Shown: one piece after another, positions 13,035-22,990 of the stretch
How the letters are laid out: each line of letters begins with the position of its first letter
How positions within the stretch are numbered: position 1 is the first letter of the stretch
Assembly (NCBI RefSeq): GCF_023276355.1
Contig: NZ_JALLPL010000001.1
Coordinates: 2,294,001-2,358,000 of the forward strand
Direction: 5' to 3'
DNA: 64,000 nucleotides
Source: Haloplanus sp. XH21
Lineage (GTDB): Archaea; Halobacteriota; Halobacteria; Halobacteriales; Haloferacaceae
Notes under the pieces: generated by a model
Databases searched by the model: none
Seen by the model: the letters and a program-made list of their open reading frames with translations, nothing else
What the model was told of the DNA's origin: nothing
Translations under genes and position numbers: made by a program

Positions 13035-14276
13035 TCACTCACCGACGGCGTCGGCGAGGTCGAGGGCGGCGTTCGCCAGCACGTTCGCCGACCGGTAGCA
13101 GTCGGCCCAGCTCGTGAACTCGTCTTCCGTGTGGCTCTTGCCGTCCTCGCTGACGGCAAACACCATCGCGGCGTCGCAGACTGACGCTGCGTGTGTCGCG
13201 TCGTGTCCCGCGCCGCTGACCATGCGCCGGCCGTCGTAGCCGAGGTCCGCCGTGGCGTCGGCGACGGCTTCGACCGGCCGGTCCGGGAAGTCGACGCTCG
13301 GTGCGTGCATCGTCCCCTCGACCTCGTAGTCGATCCCCTCGCGGTCGGCCGCGGCGGCCACCTCCGCCTCCATCCGCGCGACGGCCGTTTCGAGGACGCC
13401 CTCGCTGGGGTCGCGGAGATCGGTCGTGAACGTCACCGTCTCGGGGATGACGTTGACGGAGTCCGGCTGGACGTCGAGGGAACCCACCGTGGCGACGGTC
13501 CGCTCGCCGAGCGTTCCCGGAAGCCGTCTGATCGCGGTGACGACATCAGCGGCCGCGACCAGCGCGTCGGACCGGTGCTGCATCGGCGTCGTCCCCGAGT
13601 GGTTGGCCTGGCCGTGGAGGGTGATTTCGGCCCATCGAAGGCCGACGATACCGGTGACGATCCCCACGTCCGCGCCCGTCTCCTCCAAGTGCGGTCCTTG
13701 TTCGGGGTGAAGTTCGAGGTATGCGTGGTAGGGTTCGCGCGGTTCCGCCGGGTGGTCACCACGATACCCGATTCGCTCGAGTTCGTCGCCCAGTCGGGTC
13801 CCGTCGGCGTCCGTCTTCGCGTACTCCTCCTCGATGTCGTGAGCCCCCGCCCAGACGCCGCTGCCCTGCATCGCCGGCGGGAAGCGCGACCCCTCCTCGT
13901 TGGTCCAGTTGACGAGTTCGATGGGCCGTCGCGTCTCGATACCGCGATCGTCCAGCGTCCGGACGAGTTCGAGTGCCGCCACGACACCGAGCGCGCCGTC
14001 GTAGATCCCGCCGTCGGGCTGGGAGTCGAGGTGCGACCCCGCGAGCACCGGCGCGGCGTCGGGGTCGGTGCCCTCGCGACGCGCGAACGTGTTGCCGAAA
14101 GCGTCGATCCGGGTGTCGAGGCCGGCCGCCGTCGCGCAGTCGACGAACCAGTCGCGGGCCTCCCGGTCGGCGTCGGAGAGCGCCAGGCGGTGGAGGCCGC
14201 CTCCCTCGGTACCGCCGATCGCCGCCTGTTCCCGCATCGTCCCGACGAGTCGGTCGCGGTCGATATCGATCCTCAT
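13035..14276 (-). CDS. M20-family hydrolase (N-carbamoyl-L-amino-acid hydrolase / allantoate amidohydrolase type)
   Basis: The 413-aa zinc peptidase-fold enzyme hydrolyses ureido or amide bonds. Metal-site motifs are GSHLDSQPDGGIYDG and NEEGSRFPPAMQGSG. The ELHPEQGPHLE segment and the dimerisation-domain motif HSGTTPMQHRSDAL are typical of the AllC/HyuC branch, not of peptidase M20. An in-frame ATG three codons upstream (14285) is an alternative start. It is the last gene of the cluster with amidase and peptide-type ABC importer, which suggests breakdown of an imported amide or carbamoyl compound. The precise substrate is not determinable. Confidence 0.88.
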   Translation of the reverse strand: MRIDIDRDRLVGTMREQAAIGGTEGGGLHRLALSDADREARDWFVDCATAAGLDTRIDAFGNTFARREGTDPDAAPVLAGSHLDSQPDGGIYDGALGVVAALELVRTLDDRGIETRRPIELVNWTNEEGSRFPPAMQGSGVWAGAHDIEEEYAKTDADGTRLGDELERIGYRGDHPAEPREPYHAYLELHPEQGPHLEETGADVGIVTGIVGLRWAEITLHGQANHSGTTPMQHRSDALVAAADVVTAIRRLPGTLGERTVATVGSLDVQPDSVNVIPETVTFTTDLRDPSEGVLETAVARMEAEVAAAADREGIDYEVEGTMHAPSVDFPDRPVEAVADATADLGYDGRRMVSGAGHDATHAASVCDAAMVFAVSEDGKSHTEDEFTSWADCYRSANVLANAALDLADAVGE

Positions 14277-14334
14277 GTGACGCATCTATTCGAGCGGTGA
14301 GGGCTTCCGTGTGGCGGCGCATCCGGATCGCGGG

Positions 14335-15054
14335 TCATCGCTCCGACGGGAGCGTCCGCTCGCGGAGCGTCTCTACCTCCGCGCGAAGCCCCGCGGTGGT
14401 CGGCGCTCCGACGAACCGGGAGTCGACGCGCCCCTCCAGCGTGAACAGGATGGTCGGGGCGCCCGTCACGTCGAACTCGCGATCCAGCAGGCGCGGGCAG
14501 TCCGGACCGTAGACGGCGAGCGGGAGCAGGTCGTCGGGCGGGCCGTCGGCGAACAAGTCGTCGAAGTCCCCGCGCACCGCGTCGCAGGGCGTGCAGTCCT
14601 CCCGCCACGCGTAGACGACACACCGGTCGTAGAGGCCGACGAGTCGCTGGAGATCCGCGCCGTCGACGGGGAGAAACGCCTCGGGCGCGCCCTCGGCCGG
14701 CGGTCGCTCTTTGTCGGTCTGACCGATCACGGCCGCGAGCGCGAGCGCCCGGGCCGGCGACAGGTCGGGATCACGCTCCCGGAGAGCGAGATACCGGGCG
14801 AGGAAGTCGGGATCCGTCACCTGGCCCGCCGAGAGCGCGGTCGCCGTCTCCGGGTCGTCGGTCAACGAAGCAACCACCGTCCGTCGGTCGTCGGCGTCGG
14901 TGAGCGTCTGTCGGTAGCGTTCGACCGCGTCGTCGAACGCCGCCGTGGGGCGCACCTCGTCCCCGAGGGGCGCCTCGAACACGCCGCGCTCGACGAGTCG
15001 ATCGATCGTCGCCTCTGTACTCTTCGTGTCGTGAGTGTCGTTGGTTGATGACAT
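14335..15054 (-). CDS. thioredoxin-like protein with N-terminal helical domain
   Basis: The 239-aa protein has two parts. Residues 1-130 are a charged, helical region resembling DNA-binding or protein-interaction repeats but not recognised. Residues about 135-235 form a thioredoxin fold with the redox pair CTPC (REDCTPCDAV) and the cis-Pro segment TGAPTILF. It is probably a cytoplasmic disulfide reductase or thiol sensor, since no signal peptide is seen. It lies between the amidase and the M20 hydrolase on the same strand with short gaps, so it may keep one of these enzymes reduced. Confidence 0.75.
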   Translation of the reverse strand: MSSTNDTHDTKSTEATIDRLVERGVFEAPLGDEVRPTAAFDDAVERYRQTLTDADDRRTVVASLTDDPETATALSAGQVTDPDFLARYLALRERDPDLSPARALALAAVIGQTDKERPPAEGAPEAFLPVDGADLQRLVGLYDRCVVYAWREDCTPCDAVRGDFDDLFADGPPDDLLPLAVYGPDCPRLLDREFDVTGAPTILFTLEGRVDSRFVGAPTTAGLRAEVETLRERTLPSER

Positions 15055-15089: not shown

Positions 15090-16601
15090 TCAGGTTCGCT
15101 CTCCGATCACCGACGCGACGCGCGCGGCGACGGAGAGGAGTCGAGCGTCGTCGAACGCCGACCCGACCAGTTGCAGGCCGACGGGGAGTTCCGCGGCCGT
15201 CCCGTTCGGAAGCGTCACCGCCGGGAGTCGGGTGACGTTCGCCGCCCGCGTGTTGCGGGCGTAGTCGAACTCCCAGTCGGCGGCGGCGTCGACCGGCGGG
15301 GCGATGTCGGGCATCGTCGGCAGGAGGAGGGCGTCGACGCCGGCGAGCGCCGCCTCGAAGTTCTCGCGGAGCCGTTCGCGGGCCGCCTGTGCGCGGACGT
15401 ACGGGCGGCCATCGTGAGCCTCGACGACGCGCGCACCGGCAAGCAGTTTGCTGGCGTAGAAGTCGCCCAACTCGCCGCCCGCGCCGGCTCGCGCCCGCGC
15501 AAAGCCGGTCTGGAGCGTCTCGTCGACGCCACCACGGCGGTACGGCGCCGCCCCGTCCCGCCAGTGAGTCGCGAGTTCGACGAAGCTCAGCACGTTCTTG
15601 ATCGGGCGGGCGTCGTGGAACGAGTCGACCGAGACGGAGCGGACATCGACGCCAGCGTCGGCGAGGGCGTCGATAGCGGCCATCGTGCGCTCCGCCACAC
15701 GGTCGGCGACGCCCTCGCCCGTTCCCTCGTCGAGAACGCCGATCCGGATGCCCGCTGGTTCGGACGGGGCGGCGACCGCCTCGCGGTAGCCGCCGACGCG
15801 GTAGCCCGCGCGGCCCGCCGCTGCCAGGCTCGCCGGGTCCGCGTCGTCCGCCCCCGCCAGCGCCCCGAGGAGGGCCGCCGCGTCGGCGACGGTGTCGGTG
15901 AACGTCCCGACGTGATCCTGGGTGTAGGTGTTCTCGACGACGCCGGTCAGCGGAACTAGCCCGTAGGTCGGTTTGTAACCGACGACACCGCAGAAGGCGG
16001 CGGGGATCCGCACCGATCCGCCGGTGTCAGTGCCGAGGGCGGCGTCGACCCGATCGGTCGCCACTGCCACCGCGCTCCCGCCGGAGGAGCCACCGGCCGT
16101 TCGGTCGTCGTCGTAGGGGTTCGTGATCGGGGGGCCGTAGCCGGTCGTCCCCCGGGCGCTCCCCGCGAACTCGTCACAGGCTGTCTTGGCGGCTATCGTC
16201 GCTCCGGCGCCCCGGAGTCGGTCGACCACCGTCGCGTCCCGCGCAGGGACGAACCCCCGCATCGTCGCCGACCCACAGCGCATGGGAATGCCCGCGACGG
16301 CGACGACGTCCTTGACGCCGACGTCGACGCCGGCGAGGTGACCGTCCGCCGACGGCGGCACCGTGCAGTCGACCGCGACGGCGCTGTGGGGATCGTCGAC
16401 GGGGTCCGCCCACGTTCGTTCCCCTGGAGGAGCGCCGGTCGGCGACGGCGCGTCGTCGACCAGCGGGCTGTGCGCGAGCGCGTCGAGACCGTCGAGCAGC
16501 TCGTTCACCGTCCGGGTGAGGTCGGCCGCGCGTTCGTCGTCGACCGGGATACCGAACCGATCGCCGAGGGCCACCAGTTCCGCCTCCGAGAGCGTGCGCA
16601 T
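15090..16601 (-). CDS. amidase (amidase signature family)
   Basis: The 503-aa enzyme has the Ser-cisSer-Lys triad of the amidase signature family: Lys in GVKDVVAVAG, the Ser of GSSGGSAVAVA, and the nucleophile region TDTGGSVRIPAAFCG. This family includes GatA and diverse amide hydrolases. No gatB/gatC/gatD neighbour is present, and the gene lies in a transporter cluster, so a catabolic amidase is more likely than a tRNA amidotransferase subunit. ATG 16601 was preferred to the GTG two codons earlier. Confidence 0.9.
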   Translation of the reverse strand: MRTLSEAELVALGDRFGIPVDDERAADLTRTVNELLDGLDALAHSPLVDDAPSPTGAPPGERTWADPVDDPHSAVAVDCTVPPSADGHLAGVDVGVKDVVAVAGIPMRCGSATMRGFVPARDATVVDRLRGAGATIAAKTACDEFAGSARGTTGYGPPITNPYDDDRTAGGSSGGSAVAVATDRVDAALGTDTGGSVRIPAAFCGVVGYKPTYGLVPLTGVVENTYTQDHVGTFTDTVADAAALLGALAGADDADPASLAAAGRAGYRVGGYREAVAAPSEPAGIRIGVLDEGTGEGVADRVAERTMAAIDALADAGVDVRSVSVDSFHDARPIKNVLSFVELATHWRDGAAPYRRGGVDETLQTGFARARAGAGGELGDFYASKLLAGARVVEAHDGRPYVRAQAARERLRENFEAALAGVDALLLPTMPDIAPPVDAAADWEFDYARNTRAANVTRLPAVTLPNGTAAELPVGLQLVGSAFDDARLLSVAARVASVIGERT

Positions 16602-16671
16602 GGTCACGGTCGGTACGCGGCCAGCGGCCGACGCGACGTTGATGAGCGAGGGATCGTCGCGTGGGTCATGG

Positions 16672-18480
16672 TTACGGATCCAGACCCAGATCCTCGATGC
16701 ACGGGAAGTCCTCGGCCGACGGCGTCTCGCCCTCGGGCCACAGCGGATCGAGGTCGGCGTCCGGCGGGTAGTGGAGATTGCCGTCGCCGTCCCAGCCCCA
16801 GCCGGCGTCTTCGAGCATCTGGCGAGCCATCTCCGGGTTCCCGGTCGGATCCTCGGCCTGCTTGTAGAGCATGTCCTCCGGGGGGAACATGGGGTGATTC
16901 TGCGAAATGTACGTCGGGTACATCTCGGGATCGACTTCGCCAGCCATCGCCACGTCGATCATCTGCTGGCGGTTCACCGTCGCCGCGACCGCCTTGCGGA
17001 ACTCGGTGAACTTGCACGGCGCGGTGTGACAGGCGTACTGCAGGTTGAAGGCCGTGTGGGTGGCCGCGAACTCGGCCTGAGCGTTGTCGATTTCGTTGTT
17101 GACGCGTTCGGCGTTGGGCGGCGATATCTCCGGGGAGATCATACACTCGCCGGCTTCCAGCGCGGTGATCATGGTCTCCTCGTTGCGGTAGGCCTCGAAG
17201 ATGATCGGCTGGGACGCCTCGTAGGTCGGGTGGCCGTCGTGTGGTTCCGTGACGACGCGCTGGCCTCGCTGGAGTTCGGTCACCTCCAGCGGTCCCGACG
17301 AGACGATGGGCGTCTCGAACTGGGCGTCGCCGGGGTTCTCGACCGCGCCCGCCGCCTCGAACGACTCCTTGTGAAGGATCCCCCACCGCATCAGCGTCGT
17401 GCGGGAGAAGGGGATGTACGGCTCCGTGAACGTAAACCGGACCGTCCGCTCGTCGGGCGTCTCGATGGCGTCGTAAGGGACCGGAGCAGCGCCGGGGTAG
17501 GCGCCGGTCTCGCCGCCGCGCTGGATCTGCTCGAACGTGAACTTCACGTCCTCTGCGGTGATCGGATCGCCGTTGGTGAACGTGGCGTCCTCGAACAGTT
17601 CGACGACGACCTCCTGTGAACTGACCACGTCGACCGAGCCGAGCAGTTCGGTCAGTTCGAAGTTCTCGTTGTACTTGTGGATCGGCGAGTGGATCATATG
17701 CTGCCACATCGCCTCCGGCATCGCGGCGGAGTGGGTCATCCAGTTCGAGGTTTCGGTCGCGATGGGGTTGATCGACACCACCATGTCCTCGCCATTGGTG
17801 GTGCTTGACTTGAACGCCCACTCGGCGTTCGAGCGGGCGATCCCGCCGTTGCCGATCCCGCCCATTTCGACCATGTCCGTCCGCCACGCACCGATGTTGG
17901 CGACTGGCGCGAGATTGCCGATCGCACAGTCTTCCGCCATGCGGGCGATCGTCTCGTAGATGCCCTGCTCGCGCTCCTCCTGTGTCTCGGCGGTAGTCTG
18001 TTCCAAAAGCAGACGCGTGTACTCGCAGTCGGCGTAGTTGGAGTAGTTGCTCTGTCCGTTAGCGCCGGCCCAGTCCAGCCGCATGTTGTTCAGCAGTTCC
18101 TGCGGATCGAGCCGGTCGGCCGCCGGAACCCACCACGTGAAGGAGATGTTGTTCGCCCGGTTGGCGTCGTTGGCCATCTGTGAGAGTTGGGTGGTGATAC
18201 TCACCGGAACGACCTCCATCCCGACGCCGAGTTCGTTGACGCCCTGGCTGATGATCGGCGACATCTGTTCCTGGGTCGTCGTGAAGCCGCCGTAGTCAGA
18301 CCAGTACTCCATCTGGAGGGACTGCACCCGCTCGCCCAAGTCGCCGCCGCTGGAGCCGCCACCACCGGAGCCGTCGCCGCCCGAACAGCCGGCGATGCTC
18401 GCGGCGCCCGCCGCACCGATGGCCCGCAGTACTGACCGTCTATCGATCGACTCATGCACAGTTCCGCTATCGTGTGCCAT
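16672..18480 (-). CDS. ABC transporter substrate-binding lipoprotein, family 5 (peptide type), apparently circularly permuted
   Basis: The 602-aa exported protein has a twin-arginine pair (DRRSVLRA) and a lipobox IAGC with Cys 32, then a Gly/Ser linker. The family-5 (DppA/OppA) blocks are present but in unusual order. Residues about 55-215 resemble the usual C-terminal third (the VNELGVGMEVVPVS strand, the SFTWWVPAADRLDP region, and the EEREQGIYETIARMAEDCA helix). Residues about 230-330 resemble the usual N-terminal part (FTNGDPITAEDVKFTFEQI). The protein ends just after FRKAVAATVNRQQMI and MLEDAGWGWDGDG, which normally precede the final third. The fold is probably intact because the natural termini can be close. 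The likely ligand is a peptide or amide compound. Confidence 0.88.
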   Translation of the reverse strand: MAHDSGTVHESIDRRSVLRAIGAAGAASIAGCSGGDGSGGGGSSGGDLGERVQSLQMEYWSDYGGFTTTQEQMSPIISQGVNELGVGMEVVPVSITTQLSQMANDANRANNISFTWWVPAADRLDPQELLNNMRLDWAGANGQSNYSNYADCEYTRLLLEQTTAETQEEREQGIYETIARMAEDCAIGNLAPVANIGAWRTDMVEMGGIGNGGIARSNAEWAFKSSTTNGEDMVVSINPIATETSNWMTHSAAMPEAMWQHMIHSPIHKYNENFELTELLGSVDVVSSQEVVVELFEDATFTNGDPITAEDVKFTFEQIQRGGETGAYPGAAPVPYDAIETPDERTVRFTFTEPYIPFSRTTLMRWGILHKESFEAAGAVENPGDAQFETPIVSSGPLEVTELQRGQRVVTEPHDGHPTYEASQPIIFEAYRNEETMITALEAGECMISPEISPPNAERVNNEIDNAQAEFAATHTAFNLQYACHTAPCKFTEFRKAVAATVNRQQMIDVAMAGEVDPEMYPTYISQNHPMFPPEDMLYKQAEDPTGNPEMARQMLEDAGWGWDGDGNLHYPPDADLDPLWPEGETPSAEDFPCIEDLGLDP

Positions 18481-18589: not shown

Positions 18590-19573
18590 TCAGTTGTCGA
18601 CCCGGATGCGAGGGTCGATGACGCCGTACAGCAGGTCGATCAGGAAGTTCGAGATGATGACGAAGGCGGCGACGACAAAGAAGACGAACTGGACGACCGG
18701 GTAGTCGCGCCCGAGTACCGCCTCAACGAGCGTGAAACCGATCCCGGGCCAGTTGAACACCGTTTCGATCAGGACGAGGCCGCCGAGCGCCCGCGCCAGG
18801 GACACGGGGTAGATGGTGATCACGGGGAGGCTGGCGTGTTTGGCGACGTGGCGGAGGCGCTTGCCGACCGGCAGGCCGGTCAGCCGGTGGTACTCCGTGT
18901 AGTCCTGTCCCATCACCTCGACGACGCTGGTTCGCATGATGAGCGAAGGGATGAACAGGTACCGGCAGACGACCGCCACGAAGGGCAGGACGTAGTGGAT
19001 GCCGAAGTCCGCCGAGGTGTAGGGCTTCCACCACGCTACCGCGTCGCTTCCGCCCGCGGACAGCATCCCGGATGTCGGAAACAGGTTGAGCCAGCTAGCG
19101 AACACCACGATCAGGATGATGGAGATGAAAAACGCGGGGAACGATCCGACGCCGATGACGGGGACGAGACCCAGTTTTTCGAGGCGACTCCCGCGTTTGC
19201 TCCCCGCTATCGTACCGATGAGGGCGCCAAGGAGGTACGTGAACGTCATCGCGGGCGCGACGAGGATGAACGTGTTGAAGATGCGCATCTTCACGAACTC
19301 CCAGACTGGGACGCGGTAGACCGGCGACTCGCCGAGGTTCCCCTGTGCGAGGTTCGTGATGTACCGCCAGTACTGGACGTGAAGCGGTTGATCGAGCCCC
19401 CACTGGGCACGGAGCGCGGCGAGTGACTCCTCGCTCGCGCCCGAGACGGCCATCTGTGAGGTGAAGTCACCGGGCATCGACCGGAACATGACGAACAGTG
19501 CGGTCAGGACCAGCCACAGCGTGAACAGCGTCTGGAGCCCCCGGACGGCGACGTAGCGTTTCATCGACGACAT
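18590..19573 (-). CDS. peptide-type ABC transporter permease (DppB/OppB family)
   Basis: The 327-aa protein begins with a first membrane helix and the conserved DppB-type periplasmic region (FRSMPGDFTSQMA, LRAQWGLDQPLHVQYWRYI). Five more hydrophobic segments follow, with a coupling loop around VMGQDYTEYHRLTGLPVGKRL. The C-terminus NFLIDLLYGVIDPRIRVDN is typical of the family. An alternative ATG lies three codons downstream. It pairs with the DppC-type permease encoded at 22037-22990. Confidence 0.92.
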   Translation of the reverse strand: MSSMKRYVAVRGLQTLFTLWLVLTALFVMFRSMPGDFTSQMAVSGASEESLAALRAQWGLDQPLHVQYWRYITNLAQGNLGESPVYRVPVWEFVKMRIFNTFILVAPAMTFTYLLGALIGTIAGSKRGSRLEKLGLVPVIGVGSFPAFFISIILIVVFASWLNLFPTSGMLSAGGSDAVAWWKPYTSADFGIHYVLPFVAVVCRYLFIPSLIMRTSVVEVMGQDYTEYHRLTGLPVGKRLRHVAKHASLPVITIYPVSLARALGGLVLIETVFNWPGIGFTLVEAVLGRDYPVVQFVFFVVAAFVIISNFLIDLLYGVIDPRIRVDN

Positions 19574-19681: not shown

Positions 19682-20977
19682 TCAGTCGGTCGTGATTGCA
19701 TGAGTCTCCGAGGATGTCTGGTCGTGTTCGTAGTACTGGTGGCAGGCGACGTACCACTCGTCGTCCTCCTGGGTCCGGCGAGGCGTTCGCTCGCAGACGC
19801 TCTCGAACCGCGCCGCGAGTCGGTCGACGGCGGCTTCACGGTCGCCACGGGCGACCGATCTGAGCGCCGCTCGGAGCGTCGCCTCGTTCTCGCCGTCCAG
19901 TTCGGCCGAGAAGTACTCGGACTCGAGGGCCGCCGCGAGCGCGTCGGTGTCGGGAGCCCCGTCGAGTTGGTTTCGGATGCGGTCCATGGCGATGTCGTCC
20001 CGTTCGAGCGCCTCGCGGAACGCCATCACCTCCCGGAAGGCGGCCTGCTCCACGTCGATGTCGTCCGGTGGGATCACCTTCGGACACCGGTCACGGAACC
20101 GACAGCCGTCCCCGATATCGATCGGATCTCGCGGCGCTCCGGACATGTCCGTCCGCGGGCGGTCGTAGTGGGGGTCCGGGACCGGAATCGCCGAGACGAG
20201 CGCCTCCGTGTACGGATGCTTGGGATCGTCGAGGAGACGGTCGGTTGGCGCCGACTCGACGAACCGACCCAGATACATCACGTTCACCGTCTCGGCGATG
20301 TACGACACCGTCGAGAGGTCGTGTGAGATGTAGATCATCGAGGTGTCGTACTCGTCGATGAGGCCCTTCAGCATCCGCAAGACGGAGGCCTGCGTCGACA
20401 CGTCGAGCATCGACACCGGTTCGTCGGCGAGAATCACGTCCGGTTCCAACACCAGCGCCCGGCCGATGGCGACCCGCTGCTTCTCGCCGCCGCTGAGGTT
20501 CGCCGGCTTGCGCTTCAGATACGCCTCCGGCGGGCGGAGTTCCACGTCTTCGAGGATCTGCCTGACTCGCTCGTCGCGGTTGCCGATCCCGTGGATCTTC
20601 AGAGGCTCTTTCAGCGACTCCTCGACGGTCATCTTGGGGTCCAACGAGTTGAACGGATCCTGGAAGATCACCTGCACGTTGCTCCGGTAGTCCTTCCAGT
20701 CCGCGTCGTCGAACGAAGACATGGGCGTCCCCTTGTACACCACGTCCCCGCCGGTGATGTCGTGGAGACCGATGAGCGTCAGCAGGAGCGTCGTCTTTCC
20801 GCACCCGCTCTCCCCGATGACGGCGACCGAGTCGTTGGCATCGAGCGTGAAGGAGACGCCGTCGACGGCCTGAATCTTCGAGGGCTCGCGCCGCAGGAGC
20901 GTATCGACGACGTTGGTGCTTTCTTCGAAGTATTTCTGCAGGTTGTCGATCTCGAGTAGCGGTGTATCGGTAGCCAT
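19682..20977 (-). CDS. peptide-type ABC transporter ATP-binding protein (DppF/OppF type)
   Basis: The 431-aa ATPase has Walker A GESGCGKTT, signature LSGGEKQRV and Walker B DVILADEPVSMLD. The C-terminal oligopeptide-transporter region starts with CRFRDRCPKVIPPDD, but the usual closing VACH motif (WYVACHQY) comes only about 105 residues later. The insertion between them is charged and helical. I take ATG 20977, which lies one base after the previous gene's TGA. It is the second ATPase of the importer. Confidence 0.92.
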   Translation of the reverse strand: MATDTPLLEIDNLQKYFEESTNVVDTLLRREPSKIQAVDGVSFTLDANDSVAVIGESGCGKTTLLLTLIGLHDITGGDVVYKGTPMSSFDDADWKDYRSNVQVIFQDPFNSLDPKMTVEESLKEPLKIHGIGNRDERVRQILEDVELRPPEAYLKRKPANLSGGEKQRVAIGRALVLEPDVILADEPVSMLDVSTQASVLRMLKGLIDEYDTSMIYISHDLSTVSYIAETVNVMYLGRFVESAPTDRLLDDPKHPYTEALVSAIPVPDPHYDRPRTDMSGAPRDPIDIGDGCRFRDRCPKVIPPDDIDVEQAAFREVMAFREALERDDIAMDRIRNQLDGAPDTDALAAALESEYFSAELDGENEATLRAALRSVARGDREAAVDRLAARFESVCERTPRRTQEDDEWYVACHQYYEHDQTSSETHAITTD

Positions 20978-20978
20978 C

Positions 20979-22034
20979 TCAGTCACTCTCCTCGACGGGT
21001 GTGGCGCTCCGATCATCGAGGTCGCTCGGATCGGTCGCGCCGTATCGTTCGTACAGTTCGTACGCCTCGTCGGCCCGGAAACAGGCCGCGGCGTGGGTGG
21101 CGTCGTCGCCGACGGGATCGAGCGACGGGGCGCTGTCACGACACTCCTCGACGGCCCATGGGCAGCGGTCGGCGAAGCTACACGCCGACACCGCGCCGAA
21201 CTGCTCCGGGGGGTAGCCCTCGATCACCTCTAGCTCCCGATCCGGCTCGCGGATGTCCGGAAACGCCTCCTTGAACATGAACGCGTACGGGTGGCGAGGG
21301 TTGTCGTGAACCGCGGTCGTCGATCCACGCTCGGCGACCTGGCTGGCGTGCATGATCGCCACGCTGTCGCACGACTCGAAGATAACGCTGATGTCGTGGG
21401 TGATCAACAGGAGGCTCGTCTCGGCGTCGTCTTTCATCCGGTCGAGATACTTGAAGATCTGATCCTGCATGATCACGTCTAGCGCCGTCGTCGGTTCGTC
21501 GGCGATGACGAGGCTGGGTTCGAGAAACAGCGCGAGCGCGATGATCGCCCGCTGTTGCATCCCGCCCGAGAACTGGTGTGGGTAGTCGTCGATCCGACTC
21601 TCCTGGAGTCCGACCACGGCGAACATCTCCTTGAGCTTCTGGCGGATCTCCTCGTTCGAGAGGTCAGTGTGTACGCGACCGATCTCCCGGGCCTGCTCGC
21701 TCACCCGCTGGAGCGGATCGAGGCTGTTCATCGAACTCTGAGGGATCCACGAAATCTCCTTCCAGCGCAGTTTCTCGTTGAGTTGCGCGTCGGTGAACGA
21801 CTGGATCTCCTCGCCGCGGTAGCGGATCGTGCCGGAGTCGATCCGTCCGTTGTCGTCGAGGCCGCCGATGATCGCCTTGGCGGTCGTGCTCTTGCCGGAT
21901 CCCGACTCGCCGGCGAGCCCGAAGAACTCCCCCTCGTCGATACTGAACGAGGCGTCGGAGACGGCGGTGAGATCACCGGAGTCGGTCTCGTACTGGATCG
22001 TGAGATCTTCGACCTCGAGCAGTGGCTCGGACAT
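20979..22034 (-). CDS. peptide-type ABC transporter ATP-binding protein (DppD/OppD type)
   Basis: The 351-aa ATPase has Walker A GESGSGKST, signature FSGGMQQRA, Walker B LVIADEPTTALD, and a C-terminal oligopeptide-transporter domain with CSFADRCPWAVEECRDSAP and HAAACF, a possible Fe-S or disulfide Cys set known in this family. It starts with MSEPLLEVEDL at 22034, three bases after the permease gene ends, so the ATPases and DppC-type permease form one operon. Confidence 0.93.
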   Translation of the reverse strand: MSEPLLEVEDLTIQYETDSGDLTAVSDASFSIDEGEFFGLAGESGSGKSTTAKAIIGGLDDNGRIDSGTIRYRGEEIQSFTDAQLNEKLRWKEISWIPQSSMNSLDPLQRVSEQAREIGRVHTDLSNEEIRQKLKEMFAVVGLQESRIDDYPHQFSGGMQQRAIIALALFLEPSLVIADEPTTALDVIMQDQIFKYLDRMKDDAETSLLLITHDISVIFESCDSVAIMHASQVAERGSTTAVHDNPRHPYAFMFKEAFPDIREPDRELEVIEGYPPEQFGAVSACSFADRCPWAVEECRDSAPSLDPVGDDATHAAACFRADEAYELYERYGATDPSDLDDRSATPVEESD

Positions 22035-22036
22035 GG

Positions 22037-22990
22037 TTACGCGGCCACCGTGTCGGCTTCGACCGACTCCCCGTCGGCCGTGATGAGATCCTCGTAGCCC
22101 CGTCCGAACATGAACGTCGACAGCACCGTGATACCGATCAGGAGCCCCGGTGTCAGCGACCACCACCACGCTTCGGTCATGTAGCCGGAGTTGAACGCGT
22201 TCCGGATCATCACCCCCCACGAGGGAGTGAACGGGGAGGCGACGCCGAGGAAGGTCAGACTCGCCTGGAGCATGATGGCGTAGCCGACGCCGAGCGCCAA
22301 GAAGAAAATCGCCATCGGCGCCACGTTCGGCAGGACGTGTTTGAGGATGATCCGCGGCGTGCTCGCGCCGGTCGCCCGAGCGACTTGCACGAACGGATAC
22401 TGCTTGATCTGCAACGTCTGGGCCCGGATCACCCTCGCGCCGCCGCGCCAGAGGATCAATCCGATGACGAGGATCGAAGAGAGGAATCCGACCCCGAGGA
22501 ACGTGATCATGACGATTCCGAACGGGATGAGCGGGACGCCGTAGGCGAAGTCGGTAAAGCGCATCAGCAACGTTTCGGTCCGCCCGCCGACGTATCCGGC
22601 GGTGATACCGATCGTCGTTCCGATCGTGAGTATCAGCCCACCCCCGAGGATGCCCGTGATCACGGTCGGACGGGCACCCACCAGCAGTCGCGAGAGGACG
22701 TCGTAGCCGGCGAACGTCGTTCCGAGCGGGTGATCGAGCGAAGGCGGTGCCGCACTCAGCACTTCGCCCGTCTCGTCGTCGTACTGCGTCTCTTCGATGT
22801 CGTACGGTGCGAGGGCCGGGCCGACGACCCCAAGGAGGGTGATCGACACGAGAATCCAGAAATACACCGCAGTCGTGCGGTCCTGGAGCATCAGCCGCAC
22901 CCCACCGGTGAAATTCCTGACTATATGATTGTTTCGTATATTATCGAATGTTTGTTTTCTATTTTCTGCCTTTAGTCCACGTAGTACCAT
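22037..22990 (-). CDS. peptide-type ABC transporter permease (DppC/OppC family)
   Basis: The 317-aa protein has an N-terminal cytoplasmic stretch, the first membrane helix near residue 40, the family's ALAPYDIEET and HPLGTTFAGYDVLSRLL blocks, then five membrane segments with the loop QIKQYPFVQVARATGAS. The start MVLRGLK at 22990 is an ATG after an unusually AT-rich leader. It is the first gene of the eight-gene minus-strand cluster that ends with the M20 hydrolase. Confidence 0.92.
   Translation of the reverse strand: MVLRGLKAENRKQTFDNIRNNHIVRNFTGGVRLMLQDRTTAVYFWILVSITLLGVVGPALAPYDIEETQYDDETGEVLSAAPPSLDHPLGTTFAGYDVLSRLLVGARPTVITGILGGGLILTIGTTIGITAGYVGGRTETLLMRFTDFAYGVPLIPFGIVMITFLGVGFLSSILVIGLILWRGGARVIRAQTLQIKQYPFVQVARATGASTPRIILKHVLPNVAPMAIFFLALGVGYAIMLQASLTFLGVASPFTPSWGVMIRNAFNSGYMTEAWWWSLTPGLLIGITVLSTFMFGRGYEDLITADGESVEADTVAA

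Follow-up and report, generated by a model that had tools for sequence, protein, structure and literature searches.

The locus and its substrate-binding protein

The window analysed here, a stretch of 64,000 nucleotides from Haloplanus sp. XH21, carries the minus-strand gene array dppC-dppD-dppF-dppB-SBP, in which the gene for a substrate-binding protein (SBP) comes last and all five components of an importer are present. The array comprises a permease of the DppC/OppC type (22037..22894; PF00528, E 2.2e-21; Opp4C-like), an ATPase of the DppD/OppD type (20979..22040; PF00005 and PF08352; OppD-like NCBIfam), an ATPase of the DppF/OppF type (19682..20980; PF00005 and PF08352; DppF-like NCBIfam) and a permease of the DppB/OppB type (18590..19573; PF00528, E 4.7e-31), the set of adjacent genes by which a Dpp/Opp-type importer is recognised. 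The SBP gene runs from an ATG at 18480 to 16672 and encodes 602 amino acids; the open reading frame named in the first-pass annotation, which gave no strand, is therefore real at 16672-18480. Long overlapping frames in wrong frames or on the wrong strand are also present in this high-GC window, for example a frame of 427 amino acids over the SBP gene (16604-17887, minus strand), and are probably GC-rich shadow frames.

Directly downstream of the SBP on the same strand lies an amidase gene (15090..16607; PF01425, E 7.8e-86), and at locus L031 an 81% identical amidase likewise follows the SBP directly. Next come genes for a thioredoxin-like protein (14335..15054, minus strand; PF00085, below cut-off), a neighbour kept in L031-L034 and L036 at 47-67% identity, and for an M20-type amidase of the hydantoinase/carbamoylase family (13035..14285, minus strand; NF006769, E 1.7e-143, and TIGR01879, both above their own cut-offs). 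This last enzyme belongs to the allantoate amidohydrolase/N-carbamoyl-amino-acid hydrolase group and has a 67-70% identical counterpart as a neighbour in L034-L036. The transporter genes and several of the downstream neighbours are thus kept in haloarchaeal relatives.

The SBP begins with a twin-arginine signal peptide and lipobox (residues 1-32, 18385..18480, read from the sequence as ...DRRSVLRAIGAAGAASIAGC), of which Cys32 is predicted to be lipidated. The RR and GC residues are invariant in an alignment of 17 permuted proteins (A2), and the Pfam TAT_signal model gives a weak match to residues 12-28, below its cut-off. A Gly/Ser-rich linker follows (residues 33-54, 18319..18384), which in relatives is poly-Gly and varies in length. 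The next block (residues 55-226, 17803..18318) is the one that is C-terminal in DppA/OppA and contains the second half of the C-lobe and the final N-lobe segment, as assigned by a block profile (A4), the SapA model and hhalign. The junction of the old C-terminus with the old N-terminus falls at about residues 221-232 (17785..17820), in the interval that separates the A4 match, which ends at DppA 502, from that of a second profile (A5). The block that is N-terminal in DppA/OppA comes last (residues 227-567, 16780..17802; PF00496 and A5) and holds most of the N-lobe and the first half of the C-lobe. The chain closes with a tail past the new end (residues 568-602, 16675..16779, ...HYPPDADLDPLWPEGETPSAEDFPCIEDLGLDP). 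This tail, '..WPeGE.PS.edFPC..', with a conserved Cys, is found in the nearest relatives only and is absent from distant permuted members; in other permuted proteins the chain stops soon after 'dGxLhYPxd'. The conserved Cys could form a disulfide or a new contact.

Evidence for a circular permutation

The first-pass annotation had described this protein as a rotation of the usual DppA/OppA chain with no block missing. The translation bears out the order of its blocks, with GVGMEVVPVS from residue 85, WWVPAADRLDP from 116 and REQGIYETIARMAEDCA from 170 preceding FTNGDPITAEDVKFTFEQI from 301, RKAVAATVNRQQMI from 495 and AGWGWDGDG from 559. Membership of family 5 (cluster C) follows from PF00496 (SBP_bac_5), which matches residues 293-569 over profile positions 21-286 of 368 (E 1.1e-38) with a score of 133.7 bits against a cut-off of 32.4. 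Pfam assigns this part alone and nothing in residues 48-226, a result also expected of a truncated protein of normal order whose first 200 or so residues formed an unrelated extra domain. When the window protein was rotated and searched singly against Pfam and the PDB, its match grew slightly (profile 21-361 as against 21-286), a gain so small that family profiles were needed for decisive evidence.

Permuted relatives were therefore split at the junction and a separate profile was built for each block, A4 from the N-terminal blocks of 23 sequences and A5 from the other block. Among solved structures, A4 matches residues 354-502 of the 507 of E. coli DppA (1dpp; E 1.3e-18) and the corresponding part of dozens of further family-5 proteins, while A5 matches DppA 23-339 (E 5e-62) and AppA (1xoc) 20-347 (E 9e-70). 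Both lobes are thus covered and nothing large is missing, the canonical order of the family-5 chain being replaced by one in which the two blocks are swapped. That the profiles match DppA 354-502 and 23-339 argues that this swapped order is not due to chance. Profile-profile alignment gave the same picture, the first block aligning by hhalign to columns 392-522 of a normal-order haloarchaeal alignment of 550 columns (E 4e-14) and the last block to columns 61-397 (E 7.5e-60). N-terminal-block profiles also match the C-terminal part of normal-order homologues from haloarchaea, other archaea and bacteria, typically at E 1e-5 to 1e-22, and that of the normal-order paralogue encoded in the same genome (L037) at E 6e-4. 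Residues 393-521 of the SapA model align to residues 70-204 of the window protein. In a single-sequence search the closest solved structure, Lmo0135, was recovered with both pieces in swapped order, query residues 282-539 aligning to chain residues 65-320 and query residues 67-187 to chain residues 350-461, the latter match being too weak alone.

Since the first block is homologous to the same part of many solved family-5 proteins, and since in DppA coordinates the other block stops where it begins, the combination of a truncation with an extra domain is refuted at the level of sequence and we regard it as highly improbable. The window protein is, by these comparisons, a family-5 member by homology and a variant by topology. 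The description of the leading blocks as the final segment of lobe I needs amendment: they do come first, but most of them belong to the second half of the DppA C-lobe and the lobe I label is right only for about the last 30 residues of the first block.

Distribution of the permuted order

Homologues were sorted by chain order with two block HMMs, which separated permuted from normal proteins cleanly. Relatives ranging in identity from 87% to about 20% have the permuted order. A hand count gave a minimum of 88 genomes, among a sample of 242 of Halobacteria, with a match whose E value is 1e-110 or below, a lower bound since five candidates were scored per genome and weaker permuted groups exist (L074-L080); the matches listed at this level span both blocks. 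Sharing of the order among haloarchaea, which had been proposed as a check, is therefore confirmed, and it extends beyond them. Plasmid-borne permuted proteins occur in Neorhizobium, Nitratireductor, Microvirga, Roseomonas, Ketogulonicigenium and Maritalea. Permuted proteins are also present at L081 and L105-L108, from another family of this archaeal phylum, and, as a more distant pair, in Salipiger (L100) and Neorhizobium (L110). The PF00496 match of the window protein stops at profile position 278-288, close to the C-terminus of the chain, as it does in three further permuted proteins, one per group. The permuted protein is thus common in haloarchaea and occurs in soil and marine bacteria; a viral-contig scan found no relatives in viral contigs.

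An assembly error, or a gene rearrangement confined to this strain, would also place the blocks in the wrong order, and no support was found for it. The same order is present in all close relatives with full-length genes, in many genomes and on complete plasmids, over the range of identity given above and with the operon conserved. The relatives refute this explanation, to which we attach practically no probability.

Several other loci deserve mention. Plasmid matches from Deinococcus, Fusobacterium and Paracoccus that seemed full-length proved to be normal-order proteins joined from two pieces. Tandem SBP matches about 1 kb apart were seen in several haloarchaeal genomes, at G041:C2:224165-228720, G057:C1:777970-782479, G075:C1:214340-218849 and G079:C88:7639-12199, and the tandem copies fetched as loci (L075, L077, L078 and L080) are permuted. 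In the metagenome-assembled genome A07HB70 (L035, 6845-10816) the SBP, a near relative, changes frame after about residue 350, apparently through a frameshift or sequencing error inside the gene.

Breakpoint, fold and membrane anchor

Because the blocks are complete and swapped, the new ends of the chain correspond to about residues 340-353 of DppA, which the alignment places in the loop between the helix 'A..LLe.AG' and the next strand. We take this position to lie inside the C-lobe and not at the lobe boundary. The old termini of DppA sit together in the N-lobe, which makes their fusion plausible. An AlphaFold model of the window protein reached a pLDDT of 32.7 from an input of five sequences only, with relatives 74-86% identical, and the native fold, which is likely to be the two-lobed Venus flytrap, therefore rests on homology.

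We hold with great confidence that, taken as a whole, the locus is best explained by a lipid-anchored SBP of a five-component Dpp/Opp-type importer with a permuted cluster-C chain. The old N- and C-termini would have been joined and new ends opened in the C-lobe loop, probably by tandem duplication followed by trimming, although none of the loci examined showed a duplicated intermediate. The chain would fold into the usual two lobes and, like normal-order relatives, capture its ligand between them and hand it on to the DppBC channel. One difference would be built in, namely that the N-terminal membrane anchor departs from the C-lobe and not from the N-lobe. Moving the lipid anchor is not a reason that holds for the permutation in general, since the sequence of the Neorhizobium member shows no lipobox. 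The permuted SBP of L081 (1315-3078, minus strand) has a C-terminal PGF-CTERM anchor motif (PF18204) and no N-terminal lipobox, which predicts anchoring from the same cut loop as in the haloarchaeal lipoproteins but by the opposite end.

Origins of the permuted proteins

For trees, permuted sequences were first rotated back and then aligned together with normal-order proteins; a later tree was made without L110, the permuted relative of L100. The main permuted group, which is haloarchaeal and alphaproteobacterial, forms one clade of 23 rows (support 100/98) that adjoins normal-order archaeal proteins, in trees whose rows are distant and include several long branches. The cut falls at the same loop in every permuted lineage. 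This identity of the breakpoint is what would be expected if a single permutation lay behind all permuted family-5 proteins, the intervening normal-order rows being tree errors or later reversals, and a common clade of the Salipiger row (L100) and the main group is compatible with the data (AU test, p 0.25). However, the AU test rejected a topology in which all permuted rows form one clade (p 1.8e-5) and the grouping of the main group with L081, L105 and L106 (p 0.0066), and the best plasmid matches of the L081 protein are normal-order glutathione/dipeptide types. A single origin consequently appears unlikely to us.

The AU rejections favour two independent permutations at one loop, and three are possible, the Salipiger/Neorhizobium pair being the candidate for the third. 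One would have occurred in the lineage that is now spread across Halobacteria and Alphaproteobacteria, and a separate event would have cut that loop in one or more further archaeal lineages. On balance we lean towards the view that this C-lobe loop has been the site of two or more independent permutations in family-5 SBPs, one of which gave rise to a large subfamily of Archaea and Alphaproteobacteria, and that the loop may be a natural permutation site which turns the anchored end round with respect to the transporter.

The ligand

In E. coli, R383 and D436 of DppA hold the dipeptide and are contacted by a scoop motif of DppB, which enters the space separating the two DppA lobes (PMC12136057). 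The window protein lacks this Arg/Asp pair as such, the Asp site being replaced and the Arg site having been judged by eye. The main permuted clade does not retain D436 (precursor numbering) as such; the region around this site has an insertion there, together with an Arg that hardly varies (R123 in the window protein). This replacement suggests that the ligand is probably no plain dipeptide and leaves the label 'peptide importer' uncertain; the DppA equivalog score is 28.5 bits against a cut-off of 1005. The adjoining amidase and carbamoylase-family hydrolase lead us to guess at an amide- or ureido-containing nitrogen compound. The protein nevertheless presumably performs the ordinary importer function of capture and delivery.

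Bacterial permuted members have as neighbours M28 peptidases, IclR regulators, an Asp/Glu-type racemase or hydantoinase/oxoprolinase genes. L100 and L110 adjoin flavin-dependent monooxygenase genes (annotated as LLM-class oxidoreductase and nitrilotriacetate monooxygenase), and L110 also a flavin reductase gene; from these neighbours the ligand of that lineage may be a chelator or a similar compound.

Comparison with known systems

No description of a natural permutation in family-5 SBPs was found in the open-access papers searched, and the permuted SBP is a genuine variant, so far overlooked, of a family already known. It has apparently escaped notice because domain searches show the larger block only and records use the normal name. 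Natural circular permutations are uncommon inside a single family of proteins, and the family concerned here is among the largest of the transport receptors. Receptors of normal and permuted order that serve similar transporters form a matched set, which could show how much the termini and the position of the anchor weigh in docking, and the cut loop may offer a permissive site for sensors built from peptide-binding proteins. Global alignments and trees of family 5 will misalign permuted members unless these are rotated.

The window protein is homologous over essentially the whole chain to the DppA/OppA/NikA proteins of family 5 (cluster C), such as DppA (1dpp) and AppA (1xoc). It has the same operon partners (DppB, DppC, DppD and DppF) as DppA/OppA-type systems, whose SBPs are exported, as it is predicted to be. 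It differs from all characterised relatives in the placement of its chain ends: compared with DppA, the chain begins at the equivalent of about residue 350 and ends at that of about 345, the old termini are fused and the predicted lipid anchor departs from the C-lobe. A natural reordering of the chain within the fold of binding proteins is known from type I and type II periplasmic binding proteins, which are related by a rearrangement of strands and domains; that rearrangement separates ancient classes, whereas the permuted SBPs differ within one family and at another place. A binding-protein fold has likewise been studied in permuted form with engineered permuted halves of the Thermotoga ribose-binding protein; these (PMC9815098) are laboratory constructs from another class, whereas the present permutants are natural and widespread.
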